Counted from the stretch's first letter, positions 9,385 to 28,515 are shown. The stretch is 33,177 nucleotides of DNA from Halobacteriovoraceae bacterium (GCA_018646195.1 JABGVH010000011.1:1-33177); one strand, 5' to 3'. Made by a program: numbers and translations. Notes: generated by a model from the sequence alone, not told the origin.

Positions 9385-10857
9385 TTGCAAAAAGTTAGTA
9401 AAATTCTAATATTGTTGATCGGTATTTTTGCTTCCAGTCCTGTACTTGGCTCATCCTGTTTTGAGTTGATCGAGCAAATATTCAAAAAGAAGTCCCATCC
9501 TCGTCAATTCGATCACGATGCCATCGACCTCCTCAATAAAATTGAAGGTCAATCCAATTGGTTTCGCGGTAACAAACTCAATCCAAAAGTAGAGCTCAAT
9601 TTAAGAATTGAAGAAGAAATAGTTGGAATGGACTCCTTCATCCTTAATAACGAATTTGCAGTTGTGGTAAGAGAGTGGCGCCCCTTAATCCGAAAAGTCG
9701 AATTCGCATCAGGCTTCATGAAGCGCTACCAATTTCTAGTAGAAGTACTTGAAAAGTCAGCAGATAATTTCGATCGTATTGCAGTGACAAAGCTTTTACG
9801 CGAGAAAGAGTTTGGCGACGAGTTCATAGAAATCTTTCTCAATCGTATCGACCAAAAAGGTCGATTGGCCGTAATATTAGAATACAAAAAGCTCCATAAG
9901 AAATACGCTATTCAATTAGGTCAAAACTATCATCACTACCGCTTAGTAATTGATCACCTCGAAGAATTACTTGCAAAAGACTCTTGTGATGCCTACTGCA
10001 GAAAAAATATTAAATTTCTGATCAGTAAAATGGGTGTGGACTCAAGTATCGACGAGAAGCGCTTTCCCATACTCTTAAAAGGTATGCACAAGATGCAAAA
10101 ATCAGAAATTTATGACATTTTATACCGCAGTCAGGTGGCGGACCTTACTAGAGCAAAACTAGAACGAAATTGGAATGTCTTTGCTTTCTTTAGGGATATC
10201 GCAACAGAGATATTACTCTATAACAAAATCCGGAGCCTTTTAATTAATAATAAGTATGTCGGTGAATTTTTTGAGGCCTTTCTCAATTCCAGAGAAATAA
10301 GGCGCCTGTACTTTCCACATATTAATAAAATCATGCGCTCTACCAAAACCACTGAAAATAAATTAAAGATGCTTATCAGTGCCAATGCCCTTCCCGATCT
10401 TACTCGAGATAAACTTCTTAAAATATACTCTCAGCGAGTTGATGACGGGACTCGTAAGAGCTGGCTGGCGATGAAAGAGTTGGCCGAAAAAAATGACCAC
10501 GAGTTCTTTCAGAGAATGCTTGCCCAAGAAGAATTAGGAAAAGGTAGGGAATTAACTCTCTTGCATAAGAAAACTCTAGCGGCCAGAATCGGCTATGCCA
10601 TTGGTGCCCTAGGAAGTGGCTATGCCGTTTATTATATGGCCACGGATGGAAAAAAAGAAATCCTCGAGCAAATCGAAGACCTCGGGATCACAAAAGAGCA
10701 ACTAGAAAACGGTGAAGTCATTATTATAGAACCTGGTGGCCAGGACGACAAAGATACCGAGGCCTTAATGGAGGAATTGGAACAACTTGGAGTTAAGATA
10801 AAAGGAATTGACAGAGGTCCTTCAAGCGAGAAGAGCCCCTGGTGGAAATTCTGGTAA
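9385..10857 (+). CDS. Large secreted or membrane-anchored protein of unknown function
   Basis: 490 residues from TTG 9385. A GTG two codons earlier (9379) is in frame but only 1 nt from the AGTAGGG site, whereas TTG lies 7 nt away, so TTG is preferred. The N-terminus MQKVSKILILLIGIFASSPVLG is a signal peptide. The mature protein is helical and very rich in Lys, Arg and Glu, with paired cysteines in DSCDAYCRKN. A hydrophobic glycine-rich segment (RIGYAIGALGSGYAVYYMA, about 400-420) is probably a membrane helix, followed by an acidic tail (GGQDDKDTEALMEELEQ) ending in WWKFW. I recognise no domain. The stop codon is 11 nt before the next ATG, so it may feed into the signalling operon. Confidence 0.8.
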   Translation: MQKVSKILILLIGIFASSPVLGSSCFELIEQIFKKKSHPRQFDHDAIDLLNKIEGQSNWFRGNKLNPKVELNLRIEEEIVGMDSFILNNEFAVVVREWRPLIRKVEFASGFMKRYQFLVEVLEKSADNFDRIAVTKLLREKEFGDEFIEIFLNRIDQKGRLAVILEYKKLHKKYAIQLGQNYHHYRLVIDHLEELLAKDSCDAYCRKNIKFLISKMGVDSSIDEKRFPILLKGMHKMQKSEIYDILYRSQVADLTRAKLERNWNVFAFFRDIATEILLYNKIRSLLINNKYVGEFFEAFLNSREIRRLYFPHINKIMRSTKTTENKLKMLISANALPDLTRDKLLKIYSQRVDDGTRKSWLAMKELAEKNDHEFFQRMLAQEELGKGRELTLLHKKTLAARIGYAIGALGSGYAVYYMATDGKKEILEQIEDLGITKEQLENGEVIIIEPGGQDDKDTEALMEELEQLGVKIKGIDRGPSSEKSPWWKFW

Positions 10858-10868
10858 GAGGAAATATA

Positions 10869-11549
10869 ATGCCAATAAAATCAGTTAAAGTACCTGCACA
10901 ATTTGAAGAAATATTTAGCAATGCTGAAACCTATGTTTCTAAATATTTCGAAGATCTAAAGTTAACTCCGGAAAAAGGTCAAATTGTAATTGATGGTGAA
11001 CGCTATATTCTTGTTAGGTCTGCATCCCTATCCGTCAACTTTTTCGGATTTCTAATGCGAATGTACCCAGGGCTTGATCAAAGCGAAGCACTTGAGGCGT
11101 CTGGAGGAATTTTATTTAACATGGCCCATACCATTGGACTTTCAGATGCCAAAAATTTTCATAAGAAAACAAATGTAGAAGATCCTGTTGCAAAATTATC
11201 AACTGGTCCCATTCATTTTGCGCACACAGGATGGGCCTTCGTCGATATTAAGGAGGATAGTAACCCTTCCCCCGATGAAGATTATTACCTGCTCTATGAC
11301 CATCCACAGAGCTTTGAGGCCGACTCCTGGATTAATTCCGGCAAAAAAACTAGCTTCTGTAGCTGCTATATGAATGCCGGTTATTCCTCAGGCTGGTGCG
11401 AAGAAAGTTTTGGAATTAAGCTTATATCTCGTGAAATACTTTGCCGCGCTAAGGGAGACCCCTACTGTCGTTTTATCATGACCCCACCCCATAAAATCGA
11501 AGAAAAAATAACCGCTTATAAATTGGCAAACCCAAAATTATTTAAATGA
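10869..11549 (+). CDS. V4R-domain sensor protein (XylR_N/V4R type)
   Basis: 226 residues. The frame opens at 10842, but ATG 10869 follows GAGG at 7 nt. Residues about 20-130 match the XylR N-terminal sensory layout (GFLMRMYPGLDQSEALEASG, IHFAHTGWAFVDI). Residues about 140-205 are a V4R (4-vinyl reductase) domain: SFCSCYMNAGYSSGWCEE, a glycine, then LCRAKGDPYCRFIM. Cysteines C164, C166, C177, C192 and C200 could bind metal or a ligand. V4R domains bind small hydrophobic molecules and are often fused to sigma-54 activators or kinases. Here the sensor is a separate protein whose stop overlaps the kinase gene by 4 nt (ATGA), so it most likely supplies the signal to that kinase. Confidence 0.9.
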   Translation: MPIKSVKVPAQFEEIFSNAETYVSKYFEDLKLTPEKGQIVIDGERYILVRSASLSVNFFGFLMRMYPGLDQSEALEASGGILFNMAHTIGLSDAKNFHKKTNVEDPVAKLSTGPIHFAHTGWAFVDIKEDSNPSPDEDYYLLYDHPQSFEADSWINSGKKTSFCSCYMNAGYSSGWCEESFGIKLISREILCRAKGDPYCRFIMTPPHKIEEKITAYKLANPKLFK

Positions 11550-12835
11550 AAAAAGAAATATATAATTCTATTCTAAAAAAAATATCGAAGGCCGCTCCAC
11601 TCTTTGCTAAATCAGTATTAGAAAAAGCAGTGAGCGCGAGGGGGCACACTCAGGAAAGTATTTCTGCCGCTGAAATGCTGAAAATTCTCTCCAACGAGGT
11701 TGGTCCAAAACTCGCCAAAGACAAGACCCAATCTAACTCAATTTTATTATCTGGAGCAGCCCTAATCATTACAAATGATTGTGAAGAAGTGGTATATAAA
11801 AATGCTCAAGGTGAAGTATTATTGTCGGAGCTTCGAAGCGGCAATGGAATTGCTCAAAATGATTTCGAAGTCTTTTCCGAAAAAGGTATTGTCGAAAAAA
11901 TTCAGGACTGCTACCAAATAAAAGTTCGGGTTATTTCACTACAGGACAAGGTGTACAACGTTTCCATCTCGCCTAATTTTAATAGCGCAGGGGTCATAAC
12001 AGGAACCGTCTCAGTAGTACAAGATATCACCCTGCAAAGAGAAATAGAGGATGAAGTGGTTTCTTATATGAAGAATTTGAAGGAGGAAGTTATTAGGAGA
12101 ACTTCTTCAGAAAAAGAATTAAAGGAATCGCAGGAACTTATACTACAGTCCTCTCGGATGGCCAGTCTGGGAGAAATGGCCTCTGGAATAGCCCATGAAA
12201 TAAATAACCCTCTTGCTATGATCGGGTTAAATATAGAGCTCCTCTATCGTTTTCTAGATAAAAAAAGACTAACTGACGATATTTTAAAAGATAAGCTGGC
12301 AAAGATTGTTGAGGCCGGAGAACGTATCAATAATATTATAATCGGCATGAAGCGTTTAACCAGACCAACTGATGAGCTTGATTTTGAAACTTTCTTAGTC
12401 AGAGATATTATTCATAATGTACTAAATATCTGCAGTGAGAGATTTAAGCTTGCCAATATTAATCTCACTCTTATTGGCGATTTTGAGAATATAAAAATCA
12501 AAGGTAGGGACACTGAAATTGGACAAATCCTGGTTAATATTCTCAATAATGCCCACGATGAAATTGAAAATAAGTACCCTATGCCATGGGTAGAAATTGA
12601 AGTTTATGAAGAACAATTCCATGTTGTGATCGCAGTCACTGACTGTGGACCAGGAATTCCAAAAGATATCGAAAATAAAATGTTTGACCCTTTTTTCACT
12701 ACCAAACTCCATCGAGGAGGTACTGGGCTAGGCCTTGGGTTCTCTCGCAAAATTGCAGAATCCCACAAAGGGACTATTATAATTAACAAAGAGTCTCCTA
12801 ATACTAGAATAGAAGTTAAACTACCAAAGGTGTAA
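11546..12835 (+). CDS. PAS-domain sensor histidine kinase
   Basis: 429 residues, no membrane segments, so cytoplasmic. Residues 1-60 are helical and unassigned. About 65-165 form a PAS domain ending in VVQDITLQREIEDEV. A coiled coil (165-200) leads to a HisKA dimerisation domain with H-box GEMASGIAHEINNPLAM; the phosphorylated residue is His217. The ATPase domain shows the N box (EIGQILVNILNNAHDEIE), G1 (TDCGPGIP), F box (FDPFFTTK) and G2 (GTGLGLGFSRKIAE), so it should be active. It overlaps the V4R gene by 4 nt and is 3 nt from the first receiver gene. The NtrB-like H-box suits phosphotransfer to stand-alone receivers. Confidence 0.95.
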   Translation: MKKEIYNSILKKISKAAPLFAKSVLEKAVSARGHTQESISAAEMLKILSNEVGPKLAKDKTQSNSILLSGAALIITNDCEEVVYKNAQGEVLLSELRSGNGIAQNDFEVFSEKGIVEKIQDCYQIKVRVISLQDKVYNVSISPNFNSAGVITGTVSVVQDITLQREIEDEVVSYMKNLKEEVIRRTSSEKELKESQELILQSSRMASLGEMASGIAHEINNPLAMIGLNIELLYRFLDKKRLTDDILKDKLAKIVEAGERINNIIIGMKRLTRPTDELDFETFLVRDIIHNVLNICSERFKLANINLTLIGDFENIKIKGRDTEIGQILVNILNNAHDEIENKYPMPWVEIEVYEEQFHVVIAVTDCGPGIPKDIENKMFDPFFTTKLHRGGTGLGLGFSRKIAESHKGTIIINKESPNTRIEVKLPKV

Positions 12836-12838
12836 AGC

Positions 12839-13210
12839 ATGGCCAGAAAATTATTGGTTGTAGACGACGAAGAAATGATCAGAAGTTCTCTAAAAGAATT
12901 ATTTGAATTAGAGGAATACGATGTTGTAATAGCTGAAAATGGTACCCACGCTTGGGAACTTATTGAAAATAATTCCTTTTGCTTCGTACTGTCGGATGCA
13001 AAAATGCCTAACGGCAGTGGTATTGAGCTCTTAGAAAAAATTCAAACCATTACTAATGGACGTCCCCAGGTAGTTCTGATGACTGGTGATGCCAATATCG
13101 ACCGAGAAGAAGGGATCAATAAAGGGGCATTAGATTTAATCTATAAGCCGATCGATTTTCAAAACTTATTACAGATTATTCAAGATAGCTCTTCTCCTGA
13201 GTCGCAATGA
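12839..13210 (+). CDS. Single-domain response regulator (receiver 1)
   Basis: 123 residues, receiver domain only. Acidic pocket D9-D10-E11, phospho-acceptor D53 (LSDAKMPNGSG), switch threonine T82 (LMTGD) and K103 (YKPID) are all present, so it should be phosphorylated normally. There is no DNA-binding or enzymatic output domain, so it must act by protein contact, like CheY or a phosphorelay shuttle such as Spo0F. The gene overlaps the next receiver gene by 4 nt (ATGA). Confidence 0.95.
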   Translation: MARKLLVVDDEEMIRSSLKELFELEEYDVVIAENGTHAWELIENNSFCFVLSDAKMPNGSGIELLEKIQTITNGRPQVVLMTGDANIDREEGINKGALDLIYKPIDFQNLLQIIQDSSSPESQ

Positions 13211-13584
13211 AAGAGCTTAATACCATACTAGTTATCGAAGACGATCAAGATATGGCGAGCCTAGTGAAGAATTTTTTGAATTCCCTCTATCCCGCCGCTG
13301 ATACCATATTAAATGACGAACAAACTGCCTTTAAAACCGCCAAGAATTTCAACATCGACCTCTTCATCGTTGATATTAATTTACCTACCTACAGCGGTTA
13401 TGATCTTGGACAAATTATGCGTTCTATCACGGGAAAGGATATTCCCACTCTATATATTTCGTCCAATCCTGACTACCATTTTGAAAAAGGCGAATTAGGC
13501 GACGATTCATCACTATTCCTTAAAAAACCTTTTGGTAAAGAAAAACTAAAAGAATACATCGAAAAAATAATCTCAGAGGCCTGA
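13207..13584 (+). CDS. Single-domain response regulator (receiver 2)
   Basis: 125 residues, a second receiver-only protein at the end of the signalling operon. Acidic residues E11-D12-D13, phospho-acceptor D56 (IVDINLPTYSG), switch serine S85 or S86 (YISSN) and lysine K107 before proline (LKKPFG) are present. The sequence diverges from receiver 1, so this is not a recent copy. No output domain is attached. It ends 1 nt before the convergent methyltransferase gene, with no visible terminator. Confidence 0.93.
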   Translation: MKELNTILVIEDDQDMASLVKNFLNSLYPAADTILNDEQTAFKTAKNFNIDLFIVDINLPTYSGYDLGQIMRSITGKDIPTLYISSNPDYHFEKGELGDDSSLFLKKPFGKEKLKEYIEKIISEA

Positions 13585-14571: not shown

Positions 14572-15402
14572 TTAAAAATAAACAGAAAATTTCCCACTGT
14601 ATTTTTGGGTTCCAAAAAGACCGGCATACTCTAAGGAGAAATGCAGTAGGAATAGCTTAAACTGGACCCCAGCAAGGTAGTGAAAGGATTTTTCTCGGGA
14701 ACTCGCCACTCCACTCGAGTCGAGAAGAACCGAATTCTCAAAAATGGTTGCGCTACCATTGGCCTGTATATTGAAATCAGTCCTGCCTTCGACTATGCCA
14801 ACAGCAACAAAGGGTTCAACAAATGGTAGATCGACACTGCCAAGTAACTGGACCCCCCTGACTTTGTTTTCAAATATTATATTGGAAGCAATAGGCTGAT
14901 TACCAGTTGATTGATTTTGGATTAATTGCCCGTACGATACATTACTTTTGGAATAATGGACTTTAACTGCCAGCTCGACCAATGGAACCGGAAGATACTG
15001 TGAAAAGGTCCACTTAAGCCCAAGCGCCGCACTTTTAGCCGAAATATTATTGATAGTTATTTTAGGGAAATAATTTAACTCTGTGGTGATACCAAAGGGC
15101 ACCGTCACCTGCCCCATCAATGAACCGTGGGGGATTAGTGAAAAATCATCATTTTCAGAATTGATTTCTTGAATCAAGGCGTTAAAACGTTTCGAGCCTG
15201 TCACACCCCCAACTAGACCCACCTCGAATCCCCAAAGACTCCCAAGAGCACTAGCAGGGGAAACACTGGTCTGGGTGTAATTGGCGGAAAAGTCTTTGGA
15301 AAGGCCGTCGAGGTTACTTTGGTCGATATTATCGAGTGCCGGTCCCGCAAAGCAGTGACCCAGGTAAAAAATACTAAGAGCGAAATACCAGAGCGTTTTA
15401 AT
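14572..15402 (-). CDS. Outer-membrane beta-barrel protein, probable AUU start
   Basis: 276 residues if read from ATT at 15402-15400. The first conventional start (GTG 15222) would remove the export signal. From ATT the protein begins MKTLWYFALSIFYLGHC then FA-GPALDNID, a textbook signal peptide, and AAGAGG (15414-15409) stands exactly 6 nt upstream. An in-frame TAG lies two codons before the ATT, so no start further upstream is possible. The mature part alternates amphipathic strands (for example VELAVKVHYSKSNVSYG and FHYLAGVQFKLFLLHFSLEYAG) and ends KFSVYF with a terminal Phe, the signature used for outer-membrane barrel assembly. The cargo or function is unknown. Confidence 0.83.
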   Translation of the reverse strand: MKTLWYFALSIFYLGHCFAGPALDNIDQSNLDGLSKDFSANYTQTSVSPASALGSLWGFEVGLVGGVTGSKRFNALIQEINSENDDFSLIPHGSLMGQVTVPFGITTELNYFPKITINNISAKSAALGLKWTFSQYLPVPLVELAVKVHYSKSNVSYGQLIQNQSTGNQPIASNIIFENKVRGVQLLGSVDLPFVEPFVAVGIVEGRTDFNIQANGSATIFENSVLLDSSGVASSREKSFHYLAGVQFKLFLLHFSLEYAGLFGTQKYSGKFSVYF

Positions 15403-15506
15403 CGGCTACCTCTTTTAGGTTTTTCTTATTTTCCCGTATCGGGAGGCAAAAGCAAATCACAAACTACTTGTAAGCTTTTGTCAGCTATACAAGAAACAAT
15501 CCCTAT

Positions 15507-15547: not shown

Positions 15548-16183
15548 ATGTCTAATCTAATTCTAGCGGGCAAGAGGCTCGCACTTCTGACCTTCTCAAC
15601 GGTCTCATTACTGCAAATCAGTGCGGTAGGAACTTTCTTTTTGAAATGGGCCCATCACTGGAACTCAAATAGTGCAAAAATAATTACCCTAACGACTATA
15701 AATACCACAATGACTTTTGGATCTGAATTTATATCGCGAACAGTACTCTCTAAATCATTAACTAATGGGAAAGAATATCAATTTATAGTTGGTAATGGAG
15801 CCTGGTATCGAAATATTAATCGCCAGTCTTTGATTAATATTTGGATGACTTTTTTTGCTTCTCTTCTAGGTGCTCCGGTTTACTTTTTTGGCAGAAGAAG
15901 GGACCGCTATCTTTTCTTTATAGGCTTTGGTGTCTTTAATTCCGCCCTAAGCCAAGGGCTACTCTCTTTTTTAAAGGACGGATTTGTCTTTATTGCTGCC
16001 AAGAGGCTCTTCTTTGATTTTATTTACAATGGCACTTTAAAATTTGCAATGTTTGAGTTTTATCGAAAACCAATTAAATATAAAAATGGATTTTTTAAGC
16101 TTTATTTTATTAGAGGTAAACAAGACGTATTAACAGCATTTATAAAAAACTTATTCCTAAATCTATTACGATTCAAAGGTTAA
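15548..16183 (+). CDS. Hypothetical inner-membrane protein, partner candidate of the exported Hsp100-like protein
   Basis: 211 residues, family not recognised. Three hydrophobic helices are visible at about 12-32, 97-114 and 121-141, with a possible fourth near 145-165. There is a strongly basic turn GRRRDRY between helices 2 and 3 and a basic C-terminal tail (LLRFKG). By the positive-inside rule the RRR turn is cytoplasmic. The stretch between helices 1 and 2 (about 33-95) would then be exposed on one side of the membrane and could contact a partner. No strong ribosome binding site precedes the ATG. The next gene begins 14 nt after its stop with its own GGAGG, so the two are almost surely one transcription unit. 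Confidence 0.75.
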   Translation: MSNLILAGKRLALLTFSTVSLLQISAVGTFFLKWAHHWNSNSAKIITLTTINTTMTFGSEFISRTVLSKSLTNGKEYQFIVGNGAWYRNINRQSLINIWMTFFASLLGAPVYFFGRRRDRYLFFIGFGVFNSALSQGLLSFLKDGFVFIAAKRLFFDFIYNGTLKFAMFEFYRKPIKYKNGFFKLYFIRGKQDVLTAFIKNLFLNLLRFKG

Positions 16184-16197
16184 AATTGGAGGAAAAA

Positions 16198-18417
16198 ATG
16201 AAGTATCTTATTACGCTTGCATTAATTTTTTCACCGCTTTTTGCATCGGCACAAGACAGTACTGCGCCTGATCTACGAAAGCTAAGTGAAATTGGAAAAA
16301 TCATTCACTCAGAGCAAAACCGCTACCCTACTGACAAGGGTTGGTTAAGCACAACCAAGCTCATGAAGGAAGTAGATGTCTTTGATCAACATGTAAAACG
16401 TATGATGTCTGTTTTCTGTGGAAATGAAGTCAATAAATCGGTACTAGTTGTCGGTGAACCCTCAGATACTTACAAGTACCTTTTTGCTAGGCTTGCTAAA
16501 ATGGCAACTCCGGCAGGCTGTAAGAGAATGTCTCACGTTGATATTAGTACCTCGAAATTGCAAGGTTATATGTACGTCGGGACTACCGAGAGACAGTGGC
16601 GCGATTATATAGAAAAACCTTCCTATAATAAAGATGCCATCCTCTACTTTGACAATCTCGCCTTACTCATTGGTATTGGGACAAGTATGAATCGTACCGT
16701 TGGTATTGAGTCAACTTACGTCTCCGACTTTAAGGCCGGAAAACTCAAAACAGTCGCCTTCCTTAATAAGTATGATTATCGAAGACTCCTGGTCAGCAGA
16801 CACGGATACGTTATCAATGGCTTTCAAGAAGTTATTGAAATTGACGATCTTAAAATGCATCAGGTTGATGCCTTGGCACGTAAATTTTTGGAAATCAATG
16901 CTCCCCATATAAAGATGTCCAATAAGGTAGCTCAATACCTCTACCGAAATGTTCAATATTATCAGCCAAATTTGTTAGAACCTCAAAGAACTATGAATGT
17001 TCTTTTATCATTGATTCGCAAGAACCAAATGAAGCTAACAAAAGTTGATGCCGATATAAAGGTTGTTAAACCCTATACTGCAAACATGAATCAAGAATTC
17101 ATTATCGACCGTCCCGACTCCGTTGGTATGCAATTGGTGTTTGACTACTTTAATACCGAGTCAGGCCCAGATAAACTACGCATTTATAATGCTCATGATG
17201 AAGCACTACTTGACGAATTCTCAGGACAAGCGGTCGACCTCATTACTAAAAGATATGATACAAATAAAATTCGCCTGCAGTTCGTAAGTGATAGCAGCGT
17301 CCAAAAAGAAGGTTTTAAAATAAAAAACCTCAATCTTCAGAAAATGGAAGATGTTATTCTTAATCTTGAAATGGTTAGAACGGCAATAATGGAAATTGTT
17401 CAAGTTCCAAAATGGATTATGAATAGAGATTACGATGTTGTGCGAAACCTTCCTCGAGAGCTTGATGCTGACGTGGTCGGTGTCCATGAAGGAAAGAAGG
17501 CCCTCATAAAGCAAGTCAAAATCGGTTATGTTTCAGGACGTACTGATGAAAAACCTGCAGGCTCTCTGCTACTGACAGGACCAACAGGTACCGGGAAATC
17601 CTATATCGCCAGGAAAGCCGCTGAGTTTCTAGACATGAAAATCATCACGCTAGACATGACTCAGTATAGAACGGACGCTACGTTTGACCGTTTTCTCGAT
17701 GCCGTAGCCGATAATCTTATCCTTTACCCCTACGCGATCTATCTTTTCGAAGAGATTGATAAGGCCAATCCTAGAGTTCTCGATAGCCTTTTCTTTATGA
17801 TGGATGAAGGTATTTTTTACGATAAAACTCAAAGACCACTATTTGCTCGTGGCGCATTAGTCTTAATGACTACTAACGCCGGTGGTGATCTCATCATTAG
17901 AGAGAGAAATAATCCTGATTTAAGAAGGTTAGTAAACTTAGAGCTACAAAAAGTTTACCGTCCTTCATTTTTAAATCGTTTTGATTCAATTCCAATTTTT
18001 ACTCCTTTTACTGAACCTGAGTTTCATCAACTGGCCACAATCATGGTTAAGAAGAAAATCAAGAAAATGAAAGAGTACTTTGATTGGAACTTAACTGTTG
18101 ATGCTGCATCAATCAACTTCCTAGGAGCAGAAGGCGGAAGTGATCTATATGGAGCTCGACCAATGGAAAGAATAATCGAAAACCTTATTTCAGTTGGTAT
18201 TTCTGAATATCAAATTAACCGAGATACAATTGAATACGGCTCAACCATTTCGATTACAAAAGTAAGAGGTGAAAAAACTCGCTTCAAAATTAACGTCAAT
18301 GGAGATACTCGTGGTGGTCTAAACTATGAAATCGACTTAGACAATAATAGTGGTTTGATCCCAGATGAAACTACTCGCAAGCTCAATGAAATGTTTGCAA
18401 AAAATAGATTATATTAA
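16198..18417 (+). CDS. Exported Hsp100/Clp-like AAA+ protein with degenerate D1, CUB-like insert and active-looking D2
   Basis: 739 residues. ATG 16198 follows GGAGG, and the product begins MKYLITLALIFSPLFASAQ, a clear signal peptide. Residues about 75-280 follow the ClpA/ClpB D1 order but are degenerate: Walker A reads GEPSDTYKY (no GK[ST]) and Walker B ends YFDN. Residues about 292-381 look like a CUB domain (MQLVFDYFNTESGPDKLRIY, EFSGQ, RLQFVSDSS, GFKIKNL) where Clp proteins carry a helical middle domain. D2 has Walker A GPTGTGKS (461-468), Walker B YLFEEIDKAN, sensor-1 TTNAG, arginine finger LNRFDS (R594) and sensor-2 YGARP. The segment between Walker A and B is short and lacks the GYVG pore loop of ClpB. 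ATP is not normally available in the periplasm, so the topology is the central puzzle. A terminator follows directly. Confidence 0.88.
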   Translation: MKYLITLALIFSPLFASAQDSTAPDLRKLSEIGKIIHSEQNRYPTDKGWLSTTKLMKEVDVFDQHVKRMMSVFCGNEVNKSVLVVGEPSDTYKYLFARLAKMATPAGCKRMSHVDISTSKLQGYMYVGTTERQWRDYIEKPSYNKDAILYFDNLALLIGIGTSMNRTVGIESTYVSDFKAGKLKTVAFLNKYDYRRLLVSRHGYVINGFQEVIEIDDLKMHQVDALARKFLEINAPHIKMSNKVAQYLYRNVQYYQPNLLEPQRTMNVLLSLIRKNQMKLTKVDADIKVVKPYTANMNQEFIIDRPDSVGMQLVFDYFNTESGPDKLRIYNAHDEALLDEFSGQAVDLITKRYDTNKIRLQFVSDSSVQKEGFKIKNLNLQKMEDVILNLEMVRTAIMEIVQVPKWIMNRDYDVVRNLPRELDADVVGVHEGKKALIKQVKIGYVSGRTDEKPAGSLLLTGPTGTGKSYIARKAAEFLDMKIITLDMTQYRTDATFDRFLDAVADNLILYPYAIYLFEEIDKANPRVLDSLFFMMDEGIFYDKTQRPLFARGALVLMTTNAGGDLIIRERNNPDLRRLVNLELQKVYRPSFLNRFDSIPIFTPFTEPEFHQLATIMVKKKIKKMKEYFDWNLTVDAASINFLGAEGGSDLYGARPMERIIENLISVGISEYQINRDTIEYGSTISITKVRGEKTRFKINVNGDTRGGLNYEIDLDNNSGLIPDETTRKLNEMFAKNRLY

Positions 18418-25860: not shown

Positions 25861-27231
25861 ATGAAAAAAATGAATTTATCCAAGATAGTCTTACTGCTAA
25901 TAGCGGTTTTTCTCACTGGTTGTGAAGACCCCAATAATAATTGCTCCCAGCAATTTCTATCCTCTTACAAGACGATCCAAGAGGAATTCTCATCCCTGGT
26001 CTCGATAGATTCTGATCAGCAGCAATTGGACCAATACCTACAGCGGCTTGAGACTTTTCTAGCTGAGCATAAAAATGTCTCTTGTAAATCCAATGGTGAG
26101 AAGATTTCGCCAACAAAGGAAATAGAAAATTTCTTAGTAAAGCATTCAAAGTCATTTGAAGTTATATACGGTGTAGGAGGCGACAAAGTTATCTATGGAG
26201 ACGATAACAGAGTCGATGTAATGGATTCTACTAATTCGTCATTTAGGCTTTTGGCCAACTCAACAGCTGCCCAAATTTCGAGCACTAAAATTGCCAGCGA
26301 TGGCGCGCTTCCAACAGATACTATCGGAGTATCGATGGGACTCTGTTCAGATCAAAAATTTCATAAACAAATTAACCCTGCTCGTTGCTCTGGCTTTCTA
26401 GTTGGTCCCGACCTTCTGGTCACAGCAGGCCATTGTGTCCAAAATGAAAATGACTGTGCCAATTACCAATGGGCCTTTGGTTTTTATCGTGGAGTTACTA
26501 ATTTAGCATCGGATCAAGTTTATAAATGCAGAAAAATTATCTCTCAAAAATTAGACTCTAGAAGCAAAGCAGACTACGCACTCATTCAACTCGACCGGGT
26601 AGTTAAAGACAGGGCCCCTCTAAAATTTCGATCCATTGGTAAAATTGCTGAGAACGCTCCCTTGGTAGTTATAGGGCACCCGTCAGGGCTACCGACTAAA
26701 ATTACCGACGGTGCCAATGTCAGAGACAATAAAAATGAAGTCTTCTTTTCTGCCAATCTCGATACTTTTGGTGGTAATTCTGGCTCGGCAGTGTTCAATA
26801 CTCAAACCGGTACCGTTGAGGGAATCTTGGTTCGAGGGGAAACCGATTATATTAGTCATACCAGGCCTGATGGCAGTACTTGTAGAAAGGTAAAAGTCTG
26901 TAGCAATAGCGGTTGCCGAGGAGAAGATGTCACTCGAATAACCACTGTCGAAGGGTTAATTCCAAATGCTCCACTTGAAGTTGCTGAGGTCTTCGAGGGA
27001 ATTTTTGAATCCAATTTTGAAACCGTCAACCTTGGAGGGGTCCTATCCTTTCATTCTTATCAATATAAAAAATATAACTTGGCCGGGCGAAAATTTCTCG
27101 GGCAATGCGCCCTTATTGTCAGTAGCTTCCCTTCTCCTAAAGACTGGACTGAATCTGTAGTAGCAGACTGCCAAAGTGGAGAGGAAGAATTAGCTGCAGT
27201 TTATCAAACCTTTAAAGAGCTAGTTCTTTGA
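25861..27231 (+). CDS. Trypsin-like serine protease lipoprotein (V8/S1B-like)
   Basis: 456 residues. GGAGAGG precedes the ATG. The signal sequence ends LTGC, a lipobox with Cys21 lipidated, so the protein is membrane-anchored outside the cytoplasm. Residues 22-150 are a helical, partly disordered propeptide-like region. The protease domain follows: catalytic His191 (VTAGHC), Asp238 (KADYALIQL) and Ser307 (TFGGNSGSAVFN). The GGNSGSAVF form and the surrounding layout resemble glutamyl endopeptidase V8 more than chymotrypsin. All three residues are present, so activity is expected. A cysteine-rich patch (CRKVKVCSNSGC) and a C-terminal beta region lie after the catalytic domain. The next gene is another protease lipoprotein. 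Confidence 0.92.
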   Translation: MKKMNLSKIVLLLIAVFLTGCEDPNNNCSQQFLSSYKTIQEEFSSLVSIDSDQQQLDQYLQRLETFLAEHKNVSCKSNGEKISPTKEIENFLVKHSKSFEVIYGVGGDKVIYGDDNRVDVMDSTNSSFRLLANSTAAQISSTKIASDGALPTDTIGVSMGLCSDQKFHKQINPARCSGFLVGPDLLVTAGHCVQNENDCANYQWAFGFYRGVTNLASDQVYKCRKIISQKLDSRSKADYALIQLDRVVKDRAPLKFRSIGKIAENAPLVVIGHPSGLPTKITDGANVRDNKNEVFFSANLDTFGGNSGSAVFNTQTGTVEGILVRGETDYISHTRPDGSTCRKVKVCSNSGCRGEDVTRITTVEGLIPNAPLEVAEVFEGIFESNFETVNLGGVLSFHSYQYKKYNLAGRKFLGQCALIVSSFPSPKDWTESVVADCQSGEEELAAVYQTFKELVL

Positions 27232-27411
27232 GAGCTCCGCCGCTATAAAAAGAGCGGAAGTGACAGTTTCAAACATTTAATTACACCTCCCCTGGTTATT
27301 CCTATAACTCCCTGTAATTTCGAAATTCACATTTGAAAAAATTACTACAAGAGCTAGGAAATTTTTCTGAGCAGGCTATAGAAAAGACCTACTTAGAAAA
27401 AAGGAAGAGCT

Positions 27412-28515
27412 GTGAATCTTTTAAAATCATTACCTTGTGCAATCGTGTTGGGAATAATGCTATCTGGATGTGGCCAGGGTTCAAGCTCCGATGGCCAGTC
27501 GATTGGCTCGGCAATTGTCGGAGGAACACCAGTCGTTAGCGGTGAGTTTCCAAGCGTTGTTGCCATTACTCAAAATGGACGACGTATCTGCAGTGCTAAT
27601 CTGATCTCAGAAGACACTATTGCTACCGCCGCCCATTGTATTCAAGCCCCAGATTTTTCCTCTAGGGTGCAGGTCATGACTTATATAGAAAAACTAGGAC
27701 CAGTGCTTGAAAAAGTCACCGCAGGCCAGAAAAAACCATTCAATCAGCTCGCTATAGCAGACCAGAGAGCGCTGATGAAAAGGGCCATCAAGCTAACAAT
27801 GATTAGTGATGCCAAGGCGCTAGGGGTTGCCACAGGACTAGGCCAGGCCGGTGGACAAATGAAGGCGCAGCAAATTATCTCAAGTGTTGAAATCGACGAC
27901 CGCTACGTAGACATAATTTTCAGTAGTCTCTTTGCCAGAACCCCGCTGAATCAAGGGCAGCCAAATAGGCCTTATATTCAAATTGCCGACAAAGTTACCC
28001 TTAAGATCTCTAAAAAATTGAAAGGTGTTACTCCCATTCCTTTTATCAGTGCCAACGAACACCGTGACAATGTTTTGTTAGGCCAAGACGTTAAATTAGT
28101 TGGTTATGGACTAAAAGTTGATAAGCGTTATCTATCGGCCAGTGGTGAAAAAATTTCTCTTTGGACAAGTTCTTTAAAGGCCGAAAATGCCAAACCTGAG
28201 GCGCAACAAGATACCCAAGTTCTGGAGGCCTTAAATGCCAATATCGAGAGAGAGTTGCCTACTTTTTTAAAGTATATGACTCTTTACCAGGCCTCAGGCA
28301 CAAAGGAACAAGTCGACCTTAAATTGGAGAACTACGATCATCAGTTAATAACTCTTCGTGCAAAGGCCGCCCAAAATAATCAAGGGGCCTGTAGTGGTGA
28401 CAGCGGCGGGCCGGCCTTTGTAAAGCTTGCTAATGGCCAGCTTCGCCAATTGGGAGTTATAGTAACTGTCGATTTCTGTGGCCGCTCAACTCATATTGCC
28501 CCGGCCTTTAGATAG
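27412..28515 (+). CDS. Chymotrypsin-fold serine protease lipoprotein with large insert and short C-terminus
   Basis: 367 residues from GTG 27412, with AGGAAGAG upstream. The lipobox is LSGC (Cys20). AIVGGTPVVSGEFPSVVAI (34-52) is the activation site: the new N-terminus IVGG would insert into the active site, so it is made as a zymogen. His75 (TAAHC) and Ser331 (GDSGGP) are clear; Asp193 (IADKVTLKI) is the likely third residue. Between His and Asp there are about 118 residues, roughly 70 more than usual, and another insert lies near 240-315. The protein ends STHIAPAFR, without the usual YxxWI helix, and no frameshift explains it. It is a different S1 subtype from its neighbour, not a copy. Confidence 0.88.
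   Translation: MNLLKSLPCAIVLGIMLSGCGQGSSSDGQSIGSAIVGGTPVVSGEFPSVVAITQNGRRICSANLISEDTIATAAHCIQAPDFSSRVQVMTYIEKLGPVLEKVTAGQKKPFNQLAIADQRALMKRAIKLTMISDAKALGVATGLGQAGGQMKAQQIISSVEIDDRYVDIIFSSLFARTPLNQGQPNRPYIQIADKVTLKISKKLKGVTPIPFISANEHRDNVLLGQDVKLVGYGLKVDKRYLSASGEKISLWTSSLKAENAKPEAQQDTQVLEALNANIERELPTFLKYMTLYQASGTKEQVDLKLENYDHQLITLRAKAAQNNQGACSGDSGGPAFVKLANGQLRQLGVIVTVDFCGRSTHIAPAFR

Follow-up and report, generated by a model that had tools for sequence, protein, structure and literature searches.

A CUB-containing Hsp100-like ATPase with a predicted export signal, encoded beside a conserved membrane protein gene in the Bdellovibrionota

Clp-related ATPases outside the cytosol

By the usual view, the bacterial periplasm contains no ATP, and envelope quality control and proteolysis run without it (DegP, SurA, and similar proteins). 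Reports of ATP-dependent reactions in this compartment exist, two of which are quoted in PMC4289276. HSP101/PTEX of Plasmodium is an Hsp100 system located outside the parasite cytosol, between parasite and host, and works with a membrane partner (PMC6550532, PMC7355975). Torsins are Clp relatives of the endoplasmic reticulum lumen that carry no pore loops and have the membrane partners LAP1 and LULL1 (PMC4999309). The preliminary description of the locus treated here knew of no system with its architecture. For bacteria, no exported Hsp100 was found in the literature searched, the coverage of which was incomplete; beyond bacteria, the statement is qualified by the secreted HSP101 of Plasmodium and the lumenal torsins of animals.

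Organization of the locus

The window, that is, the whole stretch of DNA analysed (33,177 nucleotides), is a contig of a 3.8-Mb assembly of a Halobacteriovoraceae bacterium. This family of the Bdellovibrionota comprises Bacteriovorax-like predators, and kinship suggests a predatory lifestyle for the host organism as well. The following features, all on the plus strand, form the locus:

15548..16183, +, gene of the partner membrane protein, 211 aa, strongly basic, with 2 to 4 hydrophobic segments
16188..16192, +, Shine-Dalgarno sequence GGAGG, 5 nt before the ATG at 16198
16198..18417, +, predicted exported AAA+ protein with CUB domain, 739 aa
16198..16251, +, predicted signal peptide MKYLITLALIFSPLFASA, cleavage site ASA/Q
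16351..17022, +, D1 AAA module, matched to Clp D1 domains by profile, ATPase-dead by its Walker motifs
16417..16419, +, Cys74, with Cys108 the only cysteine left in the mature protein, conserved in 6/6 orthologues
16519..16521, +, Cys108, probably disulfide-bonded to Cys74, conserved in 6/6 at a spacing of 33 to 34
16570..16581, +, D1 equivalent of pore loop 1, MYVG, aligned with Clp KYRG
17068..17325, +, CUB domain (PF00431) with calcium-site-like residues E321, D325, and D365
17551..17991, +, D2 AAA+ module with intact catalytic motifs (PF07724)
17578..17601, +, D2 Walker A, GPTGTGKS
17695..17706, +, site of the deleted Clp D2 pore loop (GAPPGYVGxxxGG)
17740..17760, +, D2 Walker B, YLFEEID
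17977..17979, +, D2 arginine finger R594 (FLNRFD), conserved in 6/6
18013..18252, +, D2 small domain with sensor 2 GARPM (PF10431)

The ATPase reading frame (16186-18417) opens mechanically at a TTG at position 16186; the real start is the ATG at 16198. The pair, noted earlier as two genes 14 nt apart, is present as described, with both genes on the plus strand and the second one served by its own GGAGG. The flanking genes, encoding a DUF6588 protein upstream and a PMT_2-type glycosyltransferase downstream, lie on the opposite strand, which leaves the pair standing alone. The DUF6588 reading frame (14572-15222) starts late in its profile (139-304 of 319) and, judged by eye, may reach upstream to a nonstandard start near 15408. 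Elsewhere in the window, two trypsin-like proteases are encoded in tandem (25861-28515), and a sensor cluster at 10842-13584 consists of a V4R/XylR_N protein, a histidine kinase, and two stand-alone response regulators.

The two AAA modules

The D1-D2 order of Clp/Hsp100 proteins, proposed from the bare sequence, is borne out for both modules. D2 is recognized strongly by Pfam (AAA_2, 5e-20; ClpB_D2-small, 7e-9). D1 is missed by Pfam; a profile built from this region of the six orthologues finds Clp D1 domains with E values of 5e-7 to 1e-5. The best matches of the protein in the PDB are ClpB and ClpA (117 bits to ClpB 1qvr). It shares with these class I Hsp100 proteins the tandem modules, the catalytic motifs of D2, and the ClpB-type small domain of D2. 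In contrast to them, it carries a predicted export signal, shows no match to the Clp N domain, and contains a CUB domain between D1 and D2. The equivalog cutoffs for ClpA and ClpB are missed by far, with 130.4 of 993 and 124.7 of 1232 bits, respectively. A D2 tree groups the six orthologues together (98/95) and separates them from the clades formed by ClpA and ClpB proteins encoded in these genomes; owing to its long stem, the exact attachment of the orthologue clade is unsure.

Two further departures from ClpA and ClpB go beyond what had been noted before: D1 is catalytically dead, and D2 lacks its pore loop. The Walker A motif of D1 has no GK (GEPSDTYKY in the window protein) and its Walker B motif has no glutamate (ILYFDN), and the alignment shows both to be missing in 6/6 orthologues. 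The aromatic residue of the D1 pore loop is kept in all six as [YF]VG. D2 shows the reverse arrangement, with Walker A, Walker B, sensor 1, arginine finger, and sensor 2 intact throughout the six orthologues and a gap of 13 to 14 residues, relative to ClpA and ClpB, at the position of the pore loop (GYVG) in every one of them. The module equipped to hydrolyze ATP can therefore not grip a substrate through that loop, and the possible gripper cannot hydrolyze ATP. A full-chain AlphaFold model built from a shallow alignment of three sequences reached a pLDDT of 35 and is unusable for ring assembly.

Torsins resemble the protein, for which export is predicted, in being Clp-related ATPases of a noncytosolic place, without a D2-type pore loop and with a membrane protein as partner, a putative one in the present case. 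The likeness in the pore loop is partial, with the consensus missing from D2 and [YF]VG retained in D1. Torsins have a single AAA module and receive their arginine finger from LAP1 or LULL1, whereas two modules and an internal finger are found here. Membership in the torsin family was rejected on account of this finger (FLNRFD) and of a score of 20.5 against a Pfam Torsin cutoff of 27 for the window protein.

The CUB domain

The preliminary description placed about 90 CUB-like residues between D1 and D2. Pfam PF00431 detects them in the window protein with 31.1 bits against a cutoff of 21.4 (E value of 3e-7; residues 295-380 of the TTG-start frame) and lies above the cutoff in each orthologue scanned, with 24.6 to 36.5 bits. 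No other CUB domain exceeds the cutoff in the same genome, and none does so in 14 control genomes; a chance match was rejected. Structure prediction, proposed earlier as a check on this region, agrees. An AlphaFold model of the domain alone is all-beta with moderate confidence (pLDDT of 62, pTM of 0.61), and CUB proteins dominate its Foldseek matches, with Kremen as the best (E value of 8e-4) and enteropeptidase, TSG-6, neuropilin, and C1r/C1s among the others. Residues E321, D325, and D365 may form a calcium site, by analogy with calcium-binding CUB domains. In an alignment with the CUB domains of S8 proteases, aspartate occupies position 325 in all sequences, and the positions of E321 and D365 vary.

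CUB domains belong to extracellular proteins. Across the phylum, a profile built from D1 and CUB finds CUB domains with up to 68 bits, mostly in frames of ∼530 to 620 aa; those examined at full length form the C-terminal end of secreted S8 subtilases. A Bdellovibrio subtilisin with a CUB domain was noted as early as 2008 (NP_967057.1 of B. bacteriovorus; PMC2605481). This kinship indicates that the CUB domain of the ATPase is derived from exported proteases or held in common with them. The subtilases and the ATPase share the type of CUB domain and, by prediction for the latter, export; they differ in that the CUB domain of the ATPase is internal instead of C-terminal and that the ATPase has no protease domain.

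Export signal and cellular location

The signal peptide described for the window protein is conserved. It is found in all full-length orthologues, including one from a second family, and none of these starts after the signal peptide, the pattern that had been proposed as a check on the claim. Their N termini show a hydrophobic core and a small-x-small site, with a basic n-region in most, and the orthologue at locus L045 has a lipobox-like site. By a simple rule devised for this analysis, not by SignalP, 8 ATPases of the system pass as carrying a signal peptide, compared with none of the intact Clp, ClpX, or similar paralogues examined from the same genomes.

Cysteines within signal peptides or lipoboxes left aside, the mature orthologues contain exactly two each, at matching positions 33 to 34 residues apart; ClpA has 5 cysteines and ClpB has 3. 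Two position-matched residues per mature protein are what would be expected for a disulfide. Together with the signal peptides, the exported kin of the CUB domain, and the exported neighbors at related loci (see below), the cysteine pair argues for an extracytoplasmic location, which we regard as very probable from the sequences. The compartment may be the predator's own periplasm or the space that it occupies inside its prey. Of the two readings offered at the outset, an exported protein or an N-terminal membrane anchor with a mistaken CUB call, the first is the one favored by these features and by the lipobox-like variant, and the second conflicts with a Pfam-significant CUB domain and conserved cleavage-like sites.

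A modified form of the second reading keeps the CUB domain as a recruited beta-sandwich and lets an uncleaved N-terminal helix anchor an ATPase that faces the cytosol (N-out) and uses ordinary ATP. It would remove the problem of ATP supply, and it can point to an N-terminal helix that is short, with one lysine. The positive charge of the N terminus nevertheless predicts an N-in orientation under the positive-inside rule, the small-x-small sites are conserved, one orthologue has a lipobox-like site, and only one conserved pair of cysteines is left in the mature proteins. The homologues of the CUB domain and the S8, vWA, and trypsin neighbors are exported proteins as well, so this arrangement appears improbable.

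The partner membrane protein

The partner membrane protein matches no Pfam, NCBIfam, or PDB profile, and simple hydropathy gives its 2 to 4 hydrophobic segments. Its gene was detected in 7 of the 369 genomes of the phylum, and each of the 6 genomes with the ATPase is one of these seven, a co-occurrence with a hypergeometric p of ∼2e-12 by genome and 1e-7 by genus, both uncorrected for phylogeny. The two genes are adjacent in the window, in G037, G038, and G039, and in G159 of another family. Adjacent pairs thus fall in two families, which answers the earlier question of whether the pairing is conserved, and in both branches (subfamilies) of the ATPase tree. The genes around the pair in the window and in G159 differ from those in G037 to G039. 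Profile searches covered the phylum, in which the ATPase family is known from six genomes, the named carriers being MAGs; single-protein, viral, and plasmid searches reached beyond it. Viral contigs contain no relatives of the membrane protein or of D1. The five best of many plasmid matches are ClpB/ClpC/TssH-type or unannotated proteins with 20 to 23% identity.

In G069, the membrane gene is found on contig 160 (L047:1105-3099) with no exported ATPase detected, on a contig of only 4.7 kb in an assembly that is 86% complete. It is followed there by a lipoprotein-like protein of 440 aa that belongs to no family; a D1-like character suggested by eye was rejected on profile comparison (E value of 0.23, probability of 0.3%). 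Two ATPase loci in different genomes have related HNH-endonuclease proteins (30% identity) nearby, at L042:10040-10876 and L045:5003-5872. These genes are possibly mobile and perhaps carriers of the ATPase locus.

HSP101 of Plasmodium compares with the gene pair in that the ATPase, as read from its sequence, would be an Hsp100 outside its own cytosol with a conserved membrane protein gene. HSP101 differs in having two active nucleotide-binding domains, the ClpB layout, and no CUB domain, and the membrane gene matches no solved structure, the PTEX partners included.

Protease and transporter neighbors

Genome G057 contains two ATPase copies, neither of which adjoins the membrane gene. Each lies next to a gene for a secreted S8 protease without a CUB domain, on opposite sides: one S8 gene is 304 nt upstream and the other 14 nt downstream. 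With 16 S8 genes in this genome, a rough count puts two such neighbors by chance at ∼4e-5. S8 neighbors were seen only in G057, with none beside the window copy or in G037, G039, or G159.

The relative of the membrane gene in G057 occupies a separate locus on contig 140 (L046:2468-12664), a run of seven closely spaced genes. Encoded there are a 907-aa double-AAA protein, a vWA protein, a 792-aa double-AAA protein, a trypsin, the membrane protein, an RCC1-repeat protein, and a TLC-family (ATP/ADP) transporter; the two double-AAA proteins, which are Clp-like, and the vWA, trypsin, and RCC1-repeat proteins are exported. The 792-aa protein has Walker motifs and a D2 pore loop and lacks a counterpart at an E value of 1e-75 in 126 genomes of the order; the N-terminal half of the 907-aa protein has no counterpart in the other phylum genomes searched.

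The transporter scores 58 bits against a family cutoff of 21 and lies below the cutoff of the NTP/NDP-exchanger model. Among the seven genomes with the membrane gene, G057 is the only one in which a TLC transporter accompanies the membrane gene and ATPase; the window genome has none at an E value of 1e-6 and one weak match with 22% identity. NTT transporters also occur in free-living bacteria, where their roles are unknown (PMC5381601), so the transporter at L046 is suggestive only. G020, a genome of the window's family, encodes a very strong TLC transporter (G020:C221:3-1418) with 599 bits, far above all others in the phylum, which reflects either true nucleotide import or assembly contamination.

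Proposed mechanism and alternatives

From these features we infer a function for the ATPase, a source for its ATP, and a role for its partner. On balance, the pair can be explained as an extracytoplasmic, ATP-driven protein-remodeling machine. The Clp-derived ATPase would be exported by Sec and act outside the inner membrane. The motifs observed, a dead D1 that keeps its aromatic pore loop and a catalytically intact D2, suggest a division of labor in which D2 alone would hydrolyze ATP as the motor and move the D1 pore loops that pull on a protein, with D1 as the substrate grip. The CUB domain would be a probably calcium-dependent docking arm that brings substrates or protease partners to the motor, and the small basic membrane protein may anchor the machine or couple it to the membrane. 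Such a machine would require an unusual source of ATP outside the cytosol, either prey ATP in the bdelloplast or a nucleotide exchanger like the TLC-family transporter of G057. Envelope or prey proteins would be unfolded or dismantled and passed on to exported serine proteases. A more specific version can be offered only tentatively: an extracytoplasmic unfoldase-protease with an exported motor, subtilases or trypsins recruited by the CUB domain, the membrane protein as holder, and noncytosolic ATP from prey or the TLC transporter.

The main rival grants export and denies an active motor. The nucleotide in D2 would then be structural or act as a switch, as in torsin- or STAND-like proteins, and the protein would be a gated scaffold or a sensor of prey ATP that threads no substrate. 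The missing D2 pore loop and the dead D1 fit this reading, as do the torsins, which likewise do without pore loops (PMC4999309), and one orthologue that surpasses the Pfam Torsin cutoff (28.2 versus 27). It is harder to reconcile with a D2 that conserves the Walker B glutamate, sensor 1, the arginine finger, and sensor 2, as hydrolysis would need, and with the aromatic pore-loop residue kept in D1, and it seems unlikely overall. Less likely still is a conflict system of the AAA-plus-subtilase type in an envelope-targeted form that serves defense or interbacterial antagonism in place of predation or quality control. AAA-S8 pairs of this kind exist as the anti-phage system IetAS, and the adjacency of AAA and S8 genes is shared with it at the two G057 loci only; a neighboring S8 protease weakly matches the IetS models (36.7 bits), and the patchy spread over 6/369 genomes in unrelated neighborhoods suggests mobility. 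On the other hand, the ATPase has a negligible match to IetA (17.2 bits, E value of 6.5e-4, 34 residues only), no S8 gene lies beside the window pair, and IetAS components are, as far as is known, cytosolic, in contrast to the predicted exported proteins with a CUB domain described here.

Implications

A small group of predator-related bacteria appears to export an ATP-driven remodeler, of a kind that otherwise stays in the ATP-rich cytoplasm, joined to a CUB domain and coproduced with a membrane protein not described before. Judged by analogy, its nearest functional counterparts are HSP101/PTEX of Plasmodium and the torsins, not bacterial systems. If true, an exported Hsp100 with an intact set of D2 motifs would break the rule of ATP independence for the envelope and would mean that usable ATP exists outside the cytosol in some bacteria. 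The division into a D1 grip and a D2 motor would, if correct, offer a ready-made test of the working of Hsp100 rings. Bacteria would then have their own counterpart of malaria HSP101 and animal torsins, and an extracytoplasmic equivalent of the Clp unfoldase with its protease.
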